Below are positions 31,198-37,424 of a stretch of DNA of 37,823 nt, in pieces. Both the position numbers and the translations under genes were made by a program. Under the pieces are notes generated by a model. It saw nothing but the letters and a program-made list of their open reading frames with translations, searched no databases and was not told the DNA's origin. Numbering within the stretch: the first letter of the stretch is position 1; each line of letters opens with the position of its first letter. The stretch lies in the NCBI GenBank assembly GCA_003210795.1, contig QCUJ01000015.1, forward strand, positions 1 to 37,823, written 5' to 3'. The DNA is from Synechococcus sp. AG-679-B05. GTDB taxonomy: Bacteria; Cyanobacteriota; Cyanobacteriia; PCC-6307; Cyanobiaceae.

Positions 31198-31693
31198 GGG
31201 CTTGCGTGACGCCGGATCTCTGGAGGCAGAGATGCAGGCGATCAAGCTCGAATGAATGGGCTGGGTCATCTAAGGCAGGAATCCATCCGCACCACGCGAG
31301 ACCATCGCGTCGGCGTTGTTCCGGGTTCCAGGCCCCCTGGATCTGAATCAAGCCCTGAAGCGGAGCACCGAGCTGATCACATAGCGCTGCATAGGCCGCA
31401 GCCTGGCCACTAACGCTGCCGTCAGCGTCCCCTGGAACCAGAAGAAGCAGGGGCTGACGCCAATCAGCGAGGGCCTCCAGCCAGTGGCCGCCATCAATTC
31501 TCTGGCGTGCGGGATCACCACTGAGCCGGGTCAACCCATGCGTGGGGTCTGTGAGCACGGAGGCAGGTGATGCGCCGGTTGCATGGATTTTGAGAGGAAG
31601 AGCCCAGAGCTTTGCCAAGGCTTCCGCCGCTTCCCTCATCCTTCGTTCCGGCACTGAGCCCGCTCCAACCAGCAGCGGGATTTCAGTGGACAT
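31157..31693 (-). CDS. Hypothetical protein, about 178 aa
   Basis: I do not recognise this protein. The ATG at 31693 (MSTEIPLLVGAGSVPERR) is preferred over one at 31717. It is soluble, with strands and Gly-rich turns (LLLLVPGDADGSVSGQ, LQGLIQIQGAWNPEQ) suggesting an alpha/beta fold. The C-terminal tail is polar. It is divergent from prs with 56 bases between starts, and its 3' end overlaps the LCP-like gene by 41 bases. Confidence 0.6.
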   Translation of the reverse strand: MSTEIPLLVGAGSVPERRMREAAEALAKLWALPLKIHATGASPASVLTDPTHGLTRLSGDPARQRIDGGHWLEALADWRQPLLLLVPGDADGSVSGQAAAYAALCDQLGAPLQGLIQIQGAWNPEQRRRDGLAWCGWIPALDDPAHSFELDRLHLCLQRSGVTQALNTQAREEATAPG

Positions 31694-31749
31694 GGGTGTC
31701 CTGCTCAGCATTACCATCGGATTACAACAGACTTTGTCCCGCGGGCGCC

Positions 31750-32745
31750 GTGACCAGTTTTCTGACCACAGCCCGCACGAACCAAGCCGATGAGCTTCCT
31801 GACAGCCGCCGTTTGAGGTTGTTCAGCGGAACATCGAATCCTGCCCTGGCGCGCGAAATTGCTACGTATCTCGGCGTTCCGGATGGCCCGCGCGTTTGCA
31901 AACGTTTTGCAGATGGAGAGCTCTACGTCCAGATCCAGGAATCGATTCGCGGTTGCGACGTTTTTCTGATTCAGCCCACCTGTGCTCCAGTGAATGATCA
32001 CCTGATGGAGCTGCTGATCATGGTGGACGCTTGCCGCCGAGCCTCTGCGAGGCAGATCACTGCCGTTGTTCCGTACTACGGCTATGCCAGAGCTGATCGC
32101 AAAACCGCAGGACGCGAATCGATCACGGCCAAGCTCACGGCCAATCTGCTCGTGAAATCGGGTGTTGATCGGGTGCTCGCGATGGACCTTCACTCGGCGC
32201 AGATCCAGGGGTATTTCGACATTCCCTGCGATCACATTTATGGGTCACCTGTTCTGGTGGATTACCTCTCAAAACAGAATCTCGGTGACATCGTTGTGGT
32301 GTCTCCGGACGTTGGAGGTGTCGCCAGGGCTCGGGCCTTCGCAAAACAAATGAATGATGCGCCATTGGCCATCATCGACAAGCGGCGCACCGGCCACAAC
32401 ATGGCGGAAAGCCTCACGGTGATCGGCGATGTTTCCGGCCGCACAGCCGTTCTGATCGACGACATGATCGACACCGGTGGCACGATCTGTGCCGGGGCCC
32501 GTCTGTTGCGTCAGCAAGGTGCCAATCGTGTGCTTGCTTGTGCAAGCCATGCGGTCTTTTCTCCACCGGCATCAGAGAGATTGTCTGCAGAAGGTCTGTT
32601 TGAACAGGTGGTCGTCACCAACAGCATTCCGATCCCACAGGACCGAATGTTCCCTCAGCTCCATGTACTGTCTGTTGCCACGATGCTCGGCGAAGCGATC
32701 TGGCGCATTCATGAAGAGAGCTCTGTCAGTTCGATGTTCCGTTAG
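31750..32745 (+). CDS. prs: Ribose-phosphate pyrophosphokinase
   Basis: Prs makes PRPP from ribose 5-phosphate and ATP for nucleotide, NAD, His and Trp synthesis. The GTG at 31750 gives 331 residues beginning MTSFLTTARTNQ; the open frame continues upstream without homology. Motifs: LRLFSGTSNPALAREIA at the start, the FADGELYVQI loop, VVPYYGYARADRK, the DLHSAQIQGYFDIP metal site, VVSPDVGGVARAR, and the PRPP loop VLIDDMIDTGGTI. Length is normal. A structured intergenic region follows. Confidence 0.95.
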   Translation: MTSFLTTARTNQADELPDSRRLRLFSGTSNPALAREIATYLGVPDGPRVCKRFADGELYVQIQESIRGCDVFLIQPTCAPVNDHLMELLIMVDACRRASARQITAVVPYYGYARADRKTAGRESITAKLTANLLVKSGVDRVLAMDLHSAQIQGYFDIPCDHIYGSPVLVDYLSKQNLGDIVVVSPDVGGVARARAFAKQMNDAPLAIIDKRRTGHNMAESLTVIGDVSGRTAVLIDDMIDTGGTICAGARLLRQQGANRVLACASHAVFSPPASERLSAEGLFEQVVVTNSIPIPQDRMFPQLHVLSVATMLGEAIWRIHEESSVSSMFR

Positions 32746-32763
32746 ATCAGTCAAAGAGACCTA

Positions 32764-32793
32764 ACAGCCATTCCAAGCCGACAGCCATTCCAA
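32764..32793 (+). repeat. 13-bp direct repeat, 17-bp period, downstream of prs
   Basis: Two exact copies of ACAGCCATTCCAA start at 32764 and 32781, separated by GCCG. They lie just after the prs stop. They could be a protein or RNA binding site, or a small tandem duplication. Confidence 0.8.
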
Positions 32794-32962
32794 CCCTTAC
32801 TAAGGGGCTGATTGGGAGAAACGGCAACGTTCGGTTCCAAAAAGAGGCGGCTAGGGGTGCCGCCCATGACCAAAGGGGATGCGTCGACAAGGCTGGTACG
32901 ACCAGCGTGACCACCCTCTCCAAGTTGTTGGTGCTTCTGTGGGTGTTGTTAACGAAGTTCAG

Positions 32963-33060
32963 AAAAAAGGGGGGTGTTCCCTAAGCACCCCCGCGTTTTC
33001 GACGCATGCCCCCTTCACCGGAAGGAAGCTTTGTGAGGTTGACGTAAGAACGACCCATCA
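32963..33060 (-). ncRNA. Candidate small transcript B with micro-ORF and terminator
   Basis: Read on minus, a CCTTC-CGGT-GAAGG hairpin is followed by GGGGGC, then a micro-ORF at 33007-32981 (MRRKRGGA, stop TAG). The stop lies in the loop of a strong terminator: GGGGGTG, a 9-base loop, CACCCCC and then six Ts, ending at 32963. The 5' limit is a guess because no clear promoter is visible. It parallels module A just upstream on the same strand. Confidence 0.35.
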
Positions 33061-33104
33061 GCCGTTGCCATGACGACCAAACAGCGGCTGGGTGTGGAAC
33101 CCAT

Positions 33105-33200
33105 AAAAAAGGAAGGCCCCCTCAGGCCTCCCAGGTTCGACGCATTCATGCCCCCCTTTAAGGAGCTGTACTGATCGTCGCTAACCAATGGCCCGGTTCG
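33105..33200 (-). ncRNA. Candidate small transcript A with micro-ORF and terminator
   Basis: Read on minus, CTCCTTAAAGGGGGGCATGA precedes a micro-ORF at 33145-33122 (MRRTWEA, stop TGA). The stop falls in the loop of a hairpin (GGAGGCC paired with GGCCTTCC) followed by six Ts, ending at 33105. A TTATATA sequence near 33210 could be a -10 element, giving a transcript of about 95 nt. The layout repeats that of module B. Existence of the transcript is inferred. Confidence 0.38.
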
Positions 33201-33326
33201 CTATGCGTATATAAGCCCATTGAGAAGAGGGGCTTGCGGGGGGCAAGGTTTAAAGGAGTCAGGGCTTGCCAAGCCCTGTTGCCAACTCCAAAAAGCTGCT
33301 GCTTTCGTTGAGTCCCTCATTGACTG

Positions 33327-34475
33327 GTGCCTCTTAAATCCGTACGCCGTGTTCTGGCTCTTGCTCTGAGCCTCGGGTTTGTTACGGCGGCTCAGGCTGA
33401 GTCGCGTATGGAACGCTTGCTGAAGCCTTACTCCACGACAGGCGTCTGGCTGACCAACAGTCCCAGCACTCTCTATTACGAACGTGACCGCATCGCTGAA
33501 GCGATGAAGGAGCTCCAGGCGGCCGGCTTTAACCGTGTTCTGCCGAATGTCTGGAGTCGTGGCGCCACCTTTCACCCAAGCGCGTATGCGCCGGTGGAGC
33601 CTTCGTTGCGAAAGGCCGGCGTTGCCATCGATCCGATCTGCACATTGGTTGATGAAGGTCGCAAGCGCGGCATTCAGGTGATGCCCTGGTTTGAGTACGG
33701 GCTGATGGAGCCCGCGACGTCTCAGGTGGTGCAGCACAACCCCGAATGGGTGCTCGCCCGTGCCGATGGTCAGCGGTGGATGACCATGCATGGCAGCCAT
33801 CGCATGGCCTGGCTGAATCCCGCCCATCCAGCGGTGAAAGAAAGGTTCATTGGTCTTGTGTTGGAAACCCTGAAGCGCTGCCCAATGCAGGGATTGCAGC
33901 TGGATGACCATTTCGCCTGGCCGGTGCAATTCGGTTACGACGGCTTTACGGCGGATCTTTATGAGCAGGAGACAGGCAGCCCACCGCCCCTGGATCACAC
34001 CAATCATGAATGGATGTCATGGCGGCGCCGAAAACTGACGCAACTGCTGCGGGACCTGCGCTCCCGTCTTCAACAGGACGGCCTGTCCAGTCGGATCAGC
34101 CTGTCCCCTGGACCATTCAGGCAGTCTTACAACCTTTGGCTGCAGGACTGGAAGCTGTGGGCCTTCGGCGAGCTGATCGATGAACTCGTTGTACAGAACT
34201 ACGCCTATTCCGTGAAGGGTTTTGCGCGTGATCTGGATCAGCCGGCTCTGCTCAAGGCTCGGGAGTGGAAGCTTCCCATCCAGATCGGAATCCTGGCGGG
34301 CTTTGGTCAACGCACCACCTCCACAGCGGATCTACAGGCCAAGGTGCGCCTGGCTCGTGATCGCGGTTTTGGTGTGATTTTCTTTTACTGGGAGGGTCTC
34401 TGGGGACGCCATGTGCCTGAACATCAGCGAATTCAGCGTTTCCGGGATTTACAGCAACTGGGATCTCAACCTTGA
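33327..34475 (+). CDS. Secreted glycosidase-like protein (GHL10/DUF187 family)
   Basis: The GTG at 33327 gives 382 residues with a signal peptide (LALALSLGFVTAAQAE, cleaved after AQA). The mature protein fits the GHL10 TIM-barrel family: TTGVWLTNSPSTLYY, AGFNRVLPNVWSRGATFHPS, GIQVMPWFEYGLM, GLQLDDHFAWP and a late GFGVIFFYWEGLWG strand. Related proteins are predicted to cleave polysaccharides or peptidoglycan-linked sugars; few are tested. It should act in the periplasm or outside the cell. It is followed 18 bases later by a small membrane-protein gene. Confidence 0.85.
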   Translation: MPLKSVRRVLALALSLGFVTAAQAESRMERLLKPYSTTGVWLTNSPSTLYYERDRIAEAMKELQAAGFNRVLPNVWSRGATFHPSAYAPVEPSLRKAGVAIDPICTLVDEGRKRGIQVMPWFEYGLMEPATSQVVQHNPEWVLARADGQRWMTMHGSHRMAWLNPAHPAVKERFIGLVLETLKRCPMQGLQLDDHFAWPVQFGYDGFTADLYEQETGSPPPLDHTNHEWMSWRRRKLTQLLRDLRSRLQQDGLSSRISLSPGPFRQSYNLWLQDWKLWAFGELIDELVVQNYAYSVKGFARDLDQPALLKAREWKLPIQIGILAGFGQRTTSTADLQAKVRLARDRGFGVIFFYWEGLWGRHVPEHQRIQRFRDLQQLGSQP

Positions 34476-34945: not shown

Positions 34946-35722
34946 TTACGGCCGGCGAAGGAACAGCAGCACCATGCAGAGAACTCCGATAAGGGGGCCT
35001 GGGGGTAGATCCAGCAGCACCGCAAGCATCATCCCTCCACCACAGAGCAAGAGCCCCGTACCAGAAGATTTCAGGATCAGGTTTCGCAGGCTGGTGCTGC
35101 GTTCCACATGAACCAGCACTGGGGCGCATAGCAGACCGATCACCAGCACGATGCCAACGGCCGTGATGGCGCTGATGACCACCAGTGCCGTAATCACGAT
35201 CGCGGTGAAACGGATCTGACTGACGGGACGTCTTGCTGCAAGAGCTCCTTCGGGATCGACACCGATGAACACCAGATCCTGGTAACGGTTGGAGAAAAAA
35301 AGCACAAGGGCGAGGGCTGCGACGCCGGTGCGGACCAGATCAATACCTCCTGCGGCAAGGATGTCGCCGAACAGAATTGACTCGAGATCGATACGGGCCT
35401 TCAGCAGGGGCACCAGCAGTACACCCAGGGCTGTGAACCCAGCCAGCACGGTGTTCATCGAACCCTCCTCGCGCCCTCGGAAGCGTTGGTTCAGGCGCTC
35501 CGCTACTAGGGCGCCGATCAGGCCACTGATTACCCCCCCAATACTTGGATCCACTTCCAAGGCGAGAGCTACCACAAGCCCTGGCAGCACAGAATGGGCC
35601 ATAAGGTTGGCCAGCAGGATGCGCCGCTGTGTGATCAACAGCGAACCTGCTGCCGGACAGATGCTGCCGACCATCAGGGCCATGAGGAGAGGTGTCGCCC
35701 ACCAGAGGTCAAATTCAGCCAC
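34946..35722 (-). CDS. znuB: Metal ABC transporter permease (ABC-3 family, ZnuB-like)
   Basis: This 258-residue integral membrane protein with about eight helices belongs to the ABC-3 permeases, which import zinc, manganese or iron. Recognisable parts are QRRILLANLMAHSVLPGL near the N-terminus and ILFGDILAAG in the middle. Its start overlaps the end of the ATPase gene by 8 bases, so the two are co-translated. The metal is not fixed by the permease sequence; the Zur-like operator at 36481 points to zinc. Confidence 0.88.
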   Translation of the reverse strand: MAEFDLWWATPLLMALMVGSICPAAGSLLITQRRILLANLMAHSVLPGLVVALALEVDPSIGGVISGLIGALVAERLNQRFRGREEGSMNTVLAGFTALGVLLVPLLKARIDLESILFGDILAAGGIDLVRTGVAALALVLFFSNRYQDLVFIGVDPEGALAARRPVSQIRFTAIVITALVVISAITAVGIVLVIGLLCAPVLVHVERSTSLRNLILKSSGTGLLLCGGGMMLAVLLDLPPGPLIGVLCMVLLFLRRP

Positions 35723-36413
35723 AGCAGTCCCCCATCACACTGTCCATATCGCTGATCGTGTTACGGACCTGGGCTGGAGTTCCGTTGGCGACGAGTTGAC
35801 GATCGATCACCAGAACGCGGTCGTAACTGTCAAGGGCCTTGCCCCAGTCATGGCTGCTGACCAACAGTGTTTGACCGATCTCTGCCTGTTGGCGCATCAC
35901 ATCAAGTAAATGAGCTCGAGTGGGTGGATCAATGGCGCTGTAGGGCTCATCCAATAACAGGATGTCGCTCTCCTGTATCAGTGCTCTGGCGAGCAAAACC
36001 CTTTGTTGCTGTCCACCGGAGAGCTGGTTGAGGCGTCTGGATTCCATTCCATCCATGCCGACAAGCTTCAGGAGCTGTTCGACGGAACGCCCTTCTTTAG
36101 ACCTTTTGTTTGACGTCTTGCCCAGTTTCACCATCTGCTGGACGGTGATCGGAAAACTCCAATCGACAGCTGCCTTCTGTGGCATGAGAGCAACGGATCC
36201 GTTGCACTTGACGCATCCATCGCAGCAAGGCAAACGGCCTTGCAAAAGGTGCAATAACGTTGATTTCCCAGCTCCATTCGGTCCAACCAATGCTGTCAGG
36301 GTCCCAGGTTTCAACTGGAAGGAGATGCTGTTGATAACAAGCTTCTGCCCGTAACCAAAGCTGAGCTGGTTGACCGTCAGAACAGGATTGTCGTTGGGTG
36401 TCGGAGAACTCAA
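35715..36413 (-). CDS. znuC: Metal ABC transporter ATPase (ZnuC-like) with cysteine cluster
   Basis: The 232-residue ATPase energises metal uptake. Walker A is GPNGAGKST (44-52), the Q-loop follows at MPQKAAVDW, the signature is LSGGQQQR, Walker B is ILLLDEP and the switch histidine is in VSSHDWG. Shortly after Walker A, where relatives usually have a Pro-Ser/Thr-Gly turn, this protein has LPCCDGCVKCNG with cysteines 63, 64, 67 and 70. The C-terminus ends GDCCG. Such cysteines are unusual and could bind metal. The start faces the binding-protein gene across a 105-base gap with the palindromic operator. Confidence 0.9.
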   Translation of the reverse strand: MSSPTPNDNPVLTVNQLSFGYGQKLVINSISFQLKPGTLTALVGPNGAGKSTLLHLLQGRLPCCDGCVKCNGSVALMPQKAAVDWSFPITVQQMVKLGKTSNKRSKEGRSVEQLLKLVGMDGMESRRLNQLSGGQQQRVLLARALIQESDILLLDEPYSAIDPPTRAHLLDVMRQQAEIGQTLLVSSHDWGKALDSYDRVLVIDRQLVANGTPAQVRNTISDMDSVMGDCCG

Positions 36414-36480
36414 AATGCTGCGGTGGTCGATTTACTCACTGGTTTTCCTGGCAGGGACAAGACCAGCTTACTGGCCAGAA

Positions 36481-36495
36481 TGAGAATCATTCTCA
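36481..36495. promoter_or_regulatory. Zur/Fur-type operator, perfect 7-1-7 inverted repeat
   Basis: TGAGAATCATTCTCA is a perfect inverted repeat and closely follows the TGAtAATnATTaTCA pattern bound by Fur-family repressors such as Zur. It lies between the divergent ATPase and binding-protein starts, where one bound dimer could repress both. It also overlaps an in-frame ATG at 36480, which argues that translation of the binding protein begins further on, at 36519. Confidence 0.8.
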
Positions 36496-36518
36496 CATGT
36501 TCTTTGCCGATTCTTGCT

Positions 36519-37424
36519 ATGCGCTTCCGAGTTGCAATATCGGGACTTGCGCTTTTGGGGCTTGCTCAATCGCCTGCATCCTCATCTCAGCTTGATGTTG
36601 TTGCCGTCGACGGGACGCTTTGCGACCTAACTTCCACTTTGGTTGGTTCTGCGGCTCATGTCACCTGCCTGATTCCACCTGGAGGTAATCCGCATGGATA
36701 TCAGCTCAAACCCAGTGACCGCCAAACTTTGGCCAAGGCTGCACTGATTCTGCACAACGGGTTTGATTTAACGCCCGCTGCAAACAAAATTTTTTCTTCT
36801 GCACCTATTGTTGCGGTTGGTGAAAAAGTTTTGCCGAATTATCAAGGCAATGACCCTCATGTCTGGCACGATCCGACGACTTCGGAAGGGATGGTTCGTG
36901 TTATTTCAGCTGAGCTTTCAAAAATCCTGCCTGATGCAGAGCAGGCAGCTTTGACGGAGCGAACAACCCAAGCTGTTTCTGTTTTCAGTGGTCTTAGCCA
37001 GTGGGGTTCGGCTCAGTTTGCTGCTCTCCCTGAAAATCGGCGAGTCATAACGACCGATCACAGGACTTACAGCCATATGGCAGATCGTTTTGGTTTCAAA
37101 GAAATTGCGATGCTCGACAGCCACACCACAGGAGGTGTGCTGCGTCCATCTAGTCTTAAGGCAATCAGCGATGAAATTAAATCATCTGGTTCTCTTGTAA
37201 TTTTCAAGCCTTCGTACGAGCCTACAAAAACATTGAAGCGCATCAGTAAACGCAGTGGAGTACCAATTAGTACTAATAGACTAGAAGGTGAAGGGGTTTC
37301 CCCTGGGGAAACAGCTGTTTCCACAGCCGTTTTAAATATCTGCACGATGGTGAATGGTCAGAATGGTCAGTGTGATCAAGCTAGTGGTGATCGTTTAGTG
37401 AATAGTTGGAAGTCAATTCGTTAA
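36519..37424 (+). CDS. znuA: Metal ABC transporter substrate-binding protein (ZnuA-like)
   Basis: The 301-residue protein starts at the ATG at 36519, downstream of the operator; longer frames from 36423 would span it. A signal peptide (MRFRVAISGLALLGLAQSPA) directs export. Metal ligands likely include H59 (PGGNPHGY), H114 (NDPHVWHDP) and H181 or H186 (TTDHRTYSHMADRFGF). The fourth acidic ligand of classic ZnuA/MntC is not obvious; the later VIFKPSYEPTKTL and NRLEGEGVS segments differ from the usual pattern. Cysteine pairs (C35/C50 and two near the end) may form disulfides. It lacks the usual long His-rich loop. Confidence 0.87.
   Translation: MRFRVAISGLALLGLAQSPASSSQLDVVAVDGTLCDLTSTLVGSAAHVTCLIPPGGNPHGYQLKPSDRQTLAKAALILHNGFDLTPAANKIFSSAPIVAVGEKVLPNYQGNDPHVWHDPTTSEGMVRVISAELSKILPDAEQAALTERTTQAVSVFSGLSQWGSAQFAALPENRRVITTDHRTYSHMADRFGFKEIAMLDSHTTGGVLRPSSLKAISDEIKSSGSLVIFKPSYEPTKTLKRISKRSGVPISTNRLEGEGVSPGETAVSTAVLNICTMVNGQNGQCDQASGDRLVNSWKSIR

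Follow-up and report, generated by a model that had tools for sequence, protein, structure and literature searches.

In one intergenic region of Synechococcus sp. AG-679-B05, a short minus-strand motif, GGGGGCATG(N0-4)CGTCGAA, occurs twice, which raises the question of what the two modules built around it encode. A preliminary description of this DNA offered two answers. One was a micro-ORF beginning MRR that acts as a leader peptide or attenuator, its stop codon lying in the loop of its own terminator; the other was a duplicated small RNA (sRNA). The window analyzed here is the whole 37,823-nucleotide stretch of contig QCUJ01000015.1. Both modules are genuine, and the part of them that is conserved is not the micro-ORF. 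Our main reading, to which we assign a probability of roughly 0.6, is that three non-coding sRNA genes stand in tandem at this locus, with units A and B belonging to a multi-copy trans-acting family and unit C being an anti-sRNA.

Organization of the locus

The assembly from which the window comes is 77% complete and has exactly two sites of the motif, 32998-33013 and 33136-33155, each on the minus strand. The two frames first described, MRRTWEA at 33145-33122 and MRRKRGGA at 33007-32981, read as claimed; a hairpin and a run of six Ts come after each copy, and the stop triplets touch both loops. Overlooked at that time were a 5' hairpin right before each seed and a complementary unit, C. The intergenic region between prs and a GHL10 gene, both on the plus strand, is a tandem array of three units on the minus strand; because prs lies on the plus strand, the array converges on it. 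Units A and B share a common plan of a 5' hairpin, an exposed ATGCGTCGAAC-type seed and a Rho-independent terminator. Unit C, 3' of B on the same strand, follows the same hairpin-segment-terminator plan but with a complementary linear segment. The features, in window coordinates, are as follows.

31612..32745, plus strand: flanking gene for ribose-phosphate pyrophosphokinase, prs (PF13793, PF14572), convergent with the array; start codon unrefined
33327..34475, plus strand: flanking gene for a glycosyl hydrolase-like 10 (GHL10) protein (PF02638), divergent from the array
33233..33247, minus strand: imperfect palindrome CTTGCCCCCCGCAAG 5' of unit A, from sequence reading; function presumed
33203..33213, minus strand: -10-like TATATACGCAT ahead of unit A, from alignment; putative promoter element
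33150..33166, minus strand: unit A 5' hairpin, GCTCCTT-AAA-GGGGGGC, from folding
33135..33145, minus strand: unit A exposed seed, ATGCGTCGAAC, from alignment of units
33105..33132, minus strand: unit A Rho-independent terminator (33111-33132) with its six Ts, from pattern scan and folding
33062..33081, minus strand: conserved A-B spacer segment, TTTGGTCGTCATGGCAACGG, hairpin-like in relatives by reading
33008..33029, minus strand: unit B 5' hairpin, GCTTCCTTC-CGGT-GAAGGGGGC, from folding
32997..33007, minus strand: unit B exposed seed, ATGCGTCGAAA, from alignment of units
32963..32992, minus strand: unit B Rho-independent terminator (32970-32992) with its six Ts, from folding; missed by the terminator pattern scan
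32839-32906, minus strand: unit C as a whole (5' hairpin, anti-seed, terminator)
32892..32906, minus strand: unit C 5' hairpin, GCTGGT-CGT-ACCAGC
32875..32888, minus strand: unit C anti-seed, GTCGACGCATCCCC, complementing the B seed and some of the B hairpin's 3' arm
32839..32864, minus strand: unit C terminator (32846-32864), GGCGGCACCCCTAGCCGCC, with a U-rich tail, from pattern scan

By sequence reading, some further arrays have another palindrome at about the equivalent place, and by alignment the counterpart of the -10-like element in several other arrays is TTCTACGGAT or TTCTACCGAT. Elsewhere in the window, a 16-nt direct repeat, ACAGCCATTCCAAGCC, lies just past prs at 32764-32796 as two copies that are 94% alike and start 17 nt apart, and a zinc-uptake-type cluster (ABC-3 permease, ATPase and ZnuA-like binding protein) occupies 34946-37424.

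Distribution of the seed units

Used as a BLAST query, the intergenic region had relatives in 22 of the 34 genus genomes. A covariance model, R1, was built from 25 units found by BLAST. It matched 31 of the 34 genus genomes with 1 to 15 matches each (E <= 0.01), including 18 of the 19 genomes that are at least 90% complete; the window genome has seven matches at this threshold. The preliminary description had proposed such a covariance search across marine Synechococcus and had held that a motif absent or unpaired in close relatives would speak against its idea. The module proved to be neither, being matched in 31 of 34 genomes, with both helices covarying and covariation at 14 of 14 pairs.

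R1 matched 29 of 251 genomes and 3 of 59 sampled genera in the family, and 12 of 291 genomes and 2 of 130 genera in the class (E <= 0.001); these family- and class-wide counts are lower bounds because stricter filters lose weak matches. The 222 family genomes and 279 class genomes that had no R1 match at E <= 0.001 serve as a specificity control. Strong matches occur outside the training set, for example one of 4.5e-13 in genome G266. The E-values of the window copies (1.5e-20 and 4.9e-12) are self-matches, both copies being in the R1 training set, and the model's E-values are rough. Part of the R1 matches are weak; among the matches listed for genome G001, eight were below 1e-8. With strong out-of-training matches while most family and class genomes are match-free, the family is more than a product of chance.

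A search of the window with 4227 Rfam models gave no match at gathering score. In 20 related loci, Rfam found only tRNA, tmRNA and Glutamine-II, none of them at unit positions, and the six matches from a lax-threshold search of 601 bases fell far short of the gathering scores. No description of the seed motif was found in the literature searched, of which transcript surveys formed a partly covered section where the family may already be tabulated; papers containing the motif letters were unrelated, as judged by title. The family is lineage-restricted and apparently undescribed. A phage origin was also considered and rejected: the phage collection had no match, and a viral contig (L068) that fits a 22-base pattern had no R1 match at E <= 0.01.

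Module anatomy and covariation

We took 140 R1 units from 176 matches, omitting refetched places, and removed 6 duplicate cores, which left 134. Of these, 126 copies were anchored on GCGTC and the 8 others lack it; the invariance of GCGTC is therefore partly by construction. The consensus surrounding it is A(T)GCGTC(G)A(A)C. The 5' hairpin ended no more than 6 nt from the seed in 123 of the 126 copies, compared with 68% of mononucleotide shuffles, and a high-scoring 5' hairpin was present in 60% of copies compared with 8% of shuffles. A terminator followed 3' of the seed in 124 of 126.

When 76 copies were aligned to the model, 14 of 14 pairs changed on both sides. Paired cells made up 85.5% of the total, compared with 67.6% in shuffled versions. 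The covariation score was 0.554, compared with 0.241 in shuffled versions and at most 0.237 in slid controls; since the alignment had been fitted to the model, these values lean towards structure. RNAalifold recovered only 4 pairs from a MAFFT alignment (A1), probably because 5' hairpins of differing length were misplaced in it, and a model-based alignment (A4) was used instead. Interchangeable stems surround the constant linear segment: GCTTC..GAAGGGGC, ACCCC..GGGGT, GAAGGC..GCCTTC and CCCCCAG..CAGGGGG. Such replacement of stems around a constant linear segment is expected of an RNA whose pairing segment is exposed. Thus, of the two original answers, the duplicated small RNA held up, as a conserved, covarying hairpin-seed-terminator module present in many copies.

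A conserved stretch of 9-11 bp could also act as DNA, as a protein-binding or recombination site to which the terminators are incidental. The core is indeed short and very conserved, and the motif and its complement stand in inverted arrangement. However, the core lies between two covarying RNA-type hairpins with a T-run in nearly every copy, and motif and complement both sit in the hairpin-segment-terminator layout on the same strand. We consider a DNA-level element very improbable.

The micro-ORF

The first view of the locus was that translation of an MRR leader peptide would control the peptide's own terminator. In its favor, both window copies combine an ATG with an in-frame stop that touches the loop. 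Among the 58 ATG copies in which a stop in any frame touches the loop, in-frame stops were also the commonest (32 copies, compared with 21 for frame +1 and 6 for frame +2). In-frame loop stops exceed one third, but this excess is weak evidence for a micro-ORF because the copies are related.

Across the family, the ATG was present in 107 of 126 anchored copies and was replaced in the other 19 (8 CTG, 5 ACG, 2 CGG, 2 CAG, 1 GCG and 1 GTG). The stop overlapped the terminator loop in only 31 of the 107 ATG copies; the remaining frames stop elsewhere or run on, so that frame lengths vary. Small changes in length between seed and terminator shift the frame, as in L007 compared with the window's B unit. 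The ATG, moreover, sits close behind the closing arm of the hairpin. A leader-peptide attenuator calls for a conserved short ORF whose start and stop are placed relative to the terminator, and the copies lacked one. The preliminary description had expected conserved micro-ORF codons together with compensatory changes in the stems; the stem compensation was borne out and the conserved ORF was not.

A gene for an attenuator to control was not evident either, the array converging on prs. In 18 arrays, the open frames 3' of B on the array strand were between 12 and 121 codons long (some clipped by the end of the stretch), and by eye no common protein was seen among them. The minus-strand mechanical ORFs at the window run across C and antisense to prs. 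ATG loss, frame and stop position together led us to reject the micro-ORF or attenuator, to which we give almost no probability.

Unit C and its complementarity to the seed

Unit C was represented by a model of its own, R2, which matched 17 of the 34 genus genomes, 11 of them among the 19 better ones (at least 90% complete). In the family it matched 12 of 251 genomes and 2 of 59 genera, a lower bound under a stricter filter. All 17 C-bearing genus genomes also carry R1 matches. Among the R1 matches listed, 26 of 34 C matches (E <= 0.001) lay 47-58 nt downstream of one on the same strand and eight did not. An anti-seed partner is not general, since 17 of the 34 genus genomes, 8 of the better 19 among them, had no C match.

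Pairing of seed and anti-seed was assessed in alignment A3, which holds 19 of 21 listed arrays (L012 and L212 were omitted, the anti-seed flank of L012 matching poorly); the starting list had 25 rows, several of which were not arrays (L008 minus, L094, L140 and L201). Of 246 cells, 96.3% paired, compared with 41-55% when the segments were slid. No covariation beyond column shuffles was found between seed and anti-seed in these 19 arrays (0.155 versus 0.153), and the changes were mostly one-sided G-U. Complementarity was seen but co-evolution was not, because the arrays were mostly chosen for having the anti-motif and shuffled columns gave equal values. The predicted B x C duplex had an energy of -27.4 kcal/mol, and 2000 mononucleotide shuffles had a mean of -14.2 and a lowest value of -28.1. 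Some arrays have a degenerate B or C: the B seed is lost in L013 and L178, and the match is weakened in L009, L017 and L010. Several arrays continue past C with segment D, a fourth hairpin-terminator (L167:760-890; end of alignment A2).

For the 19 B-C regions, RNAalifold preferred a long-range cis helix between the B seed and the C anti-seed, enclosing the B terminator. Because the 3' arm of B's 5' hairpin is taken up by this helix, the two structures would compete. Given this preference, cis pairing in a read-through RNA is a live alternative. In its fuller form, A-B-C (or B-C) would form a single long, structured non-coding transcript, with B and C paired in cis and with internal terminators that are leaky or are hairpins only. 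The replacement of the B 5' hairpin in the fold and the tight B-C spacing of 47-58 nt fit such an RNA. Against it, some B-type units lack a C, some C units have no seed unit beside them, and the long-range helix shows no covariation.

A long RNA of this kind might be a relative of Yfr103, and for that comparison we take genomes G029, G006 and G020 to be strains CC9605, CC9902 and KORDI-100. The array occurs in G029 as 2 full copies plus partial ones; G006 and G020 gave no array match. Yfr103 is given, in the portion of its source consulted, as a very abundant multi-copy non-coding RNA of marine Synechococcus, 290-328 nt long, whose upstream positions -29 to -58 form an imperfect palindrome; it has seven paralogs in CC9605 and occurs also in CC9902 and KORDI-100 (PMC5069720). 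Length, copy number and palindrome prompted the comparison. Compared by that description, the array is similarly multi-copy and has a palindrome upstream of its putative start, which in some arrays lies about 30 nt before the start site suggested by the -10-like box. Copy number and strain distribution nevertheless disfavor identity with Yfr103, on provisional strain assignments and a Yfr103 that is known by description. We regard one long RNA, kin to Yfr103 or otherwise, as rather unlikely, though it is the most probable of the alternatives to the three-gene reading.

Genomic context

The loci fall into classes. Convergent B-type loci without C numbered 11, at 6 distinct places in one flank cluster (the rest being refetches); at one of them, L073, an M17 aminopeptidase gene lies on one side. 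Type-3 loci numbered 10, at 9 distinct places in one flank cluster, and the 17 ABC-type loci fell into 8 flank clusters. Among the singleton units, several classes have upstream boxes of their own. Type-2 copies carry TACAAA..GTTC..GATA(C/T)A at a fixed distance from the seed (10 of 12), type-3 copies carry CAACAC(C/T)(T/C)AC 59-60 nt before the seed (16 of 18), and type-E copies, with the hairpin GAAGGC..GCCTTC and noted at L172 and L177 of G029, carry AATGC(C/T)TA at varying distance (11 of 13). A Fur-box-like AATGATTCTC lies upstream in 3 of 13 type-E copies. That the boxes are promoters and that AATGATTCTC is a Fur box are both predictions. Iron control of type-E units is accordingly only possible, and the class-specific boxes suggest separately controlled genes that would deliver one seed.

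Multiplicity of this kind might instead mark a MITE- or REP-like repeat dispersed among intergenic regions, with terminators and no regulatory role, that spreads by transposition or gene conversion. The units are multi-copy, L029 has whole arrays repeated in tandem at a distance of about 1.24 kb, B and C form an inverted repeat, and the ABC-type loci are scattered over their 8 flank clusters. In contrast, two other classes hold orthologous positions (6 and 9 distinct places), the 5' hairpin stems change in a compensatory manner while the seed stays constant, and the conserved upstream boxes are class-specific. A mere repeat thus appears improbable.

Other observations were made around the units. 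The tandem duplication of whole arrays about 1.24 kb apart was recorded at L029:1-2100 (G001) and at G031:C12:37056-38624. In six genomes, an opposite-orientation R1 pair flanks 5-8 kb (G001:C1:835188/840619, G029:C1:1438800/1432784, G033:C1:1248390/1240390, G003:C1:1313216/1307773, G021:C1:1557351/1564973 and G028:C40:6593/12611). Glutamine-II riboswitches lie less than 1 kb from some units (L069, L073:2019-2078 and L101:2429-2487), and the L073 riboswitch is close to an ORF that matches DUF3104. One genome of genus g47 has a tmRNA gene (L109:1085-1374) about 130 nt upstream of a unit.

Comparison with known systems

In the sections consulted, Yfr1 is described as an 11-nt motif held single-stranded between two stem-loops, the second of which is the terminator (PMC1242208, PMC6778093). 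This is the layout found here, with a 5' hairpin in 123 and a terminator in 124 of 126 copies. Yfr1, Yfr10, Yfr12 and Yfr18 carry one 11-nt motif in otherwise differing RNAs, with several copies per genome, and in Prochlorococcus the genes for Yfr10, Yfr12 and Yfr18 adjoin those of the complementary Yfr2, Yfr4 and Yfr5; a 270-nt precursor of Yfr10 plus Yfr2 is on record in the same excerpts (PMC6778093, PMC2518516). Neighbors with complementary motifs, as in Yfr10-Yfr2, resemble the seed unit beside C. As far as the excerpted text goes, Yfr1 is almost universal among cyanobacteria (PMC6778093), whereas the present family was matched in 3 of 59 sampled genera with up to 15 matches per genome.

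Yfr2-5 are reported, again in excerpts, to be dispersed and multi-copy and to carry a motif that complements another family of sRNAs, and interference with Yfr1 and Yfr10 has been demonstrated (PMC6778093). Their motif, GGAAACA, lies in the loop of the 5' hairpin according to the part consulted (PMC1242208), while the anti-seed of C lies in the linear stretch from hairpin to terminator. On either strand of window positions 32740-33340, the best match to the Yfr1/Yfr10 motif ACUCCUCACAC had 4 mismatches in 11; the best array matches to GGAAACA and GUGUGUAGGAG had 1-2 mismatches in 7 and 3-4 in 11, respectively. With the Yfr1/Yfr10 and Yfr2-5 motifs absent, the array is not a member of either group. 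By analogy, it may work like Yfr1/Yfr10 with Yfr2 of Prochlorococcus, though the motifs differ.

The Caulobacter siblings SisA-D, in the account available in part, share one conserved 10-mer and no common promoter motif, and the sponge CrfA pairs with the 10-mer (PMC12559287). They are a functional parallel, known here from description; a tandem seed/anti-seed cassette with a fixed gap does not appear in the part of that description consulted (PMC12559287).

Proposed mechanism and significance

Module anatomy and covariation, copy number, distribution, spacing and complementarity are observed here, while transcription, action in trans, targets and the sponge role are proposed. On the three-gene reading, A and B would be transcribed as short stable RNAs, each with the seed (A)UGCGUC(G)A(A)C between a 5' stem-loop and a Rho-independent terminator. 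The linear AUGCGUCGAAC would pair in trans with mRNAs, probably near ribosome-binding sites. Since copies stand behind at least 3 conserved upstream classes, different signals could feed one target set. In six genomes, exact 10-mer complements of the seed occurred at 11 sites outside R1 units and array C units; the eight of these that were read comprised one lone C unit (L114) and seven that looked chance-like by eye. This search of six genomes with exact 10-mers gave no recurrent exact-match mRNA target, no two of the sites read sharing sequence.

Unit C may act as an anti-sRNA, or sponge, forming a duplex of about 14-18 nt with A and B and limiting both; alternatively, it may pair in cis within read-through transcripts. 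As a tentative extension that we would not yet favor, the whole could be a self-limiting cassette, in which a seed hub sits behind different stress promoters and some copies have their own anti-seed 47-58 nt downstream. Read-through past the B terminator, or processing, would then yield a brake from the regulator's own gene.

The post-transcriptional network of marine Synechococcus is, so far as is known, poorly mapped. If the reading of A, B and C as seed and anti-seed sRNA genes is true, the locus would be a second, sequence-unrelated instance of the Yfr10-Yfr2 arrangement, and its short, strongly conserved seed would make target mapping directly testable in cultured strains.
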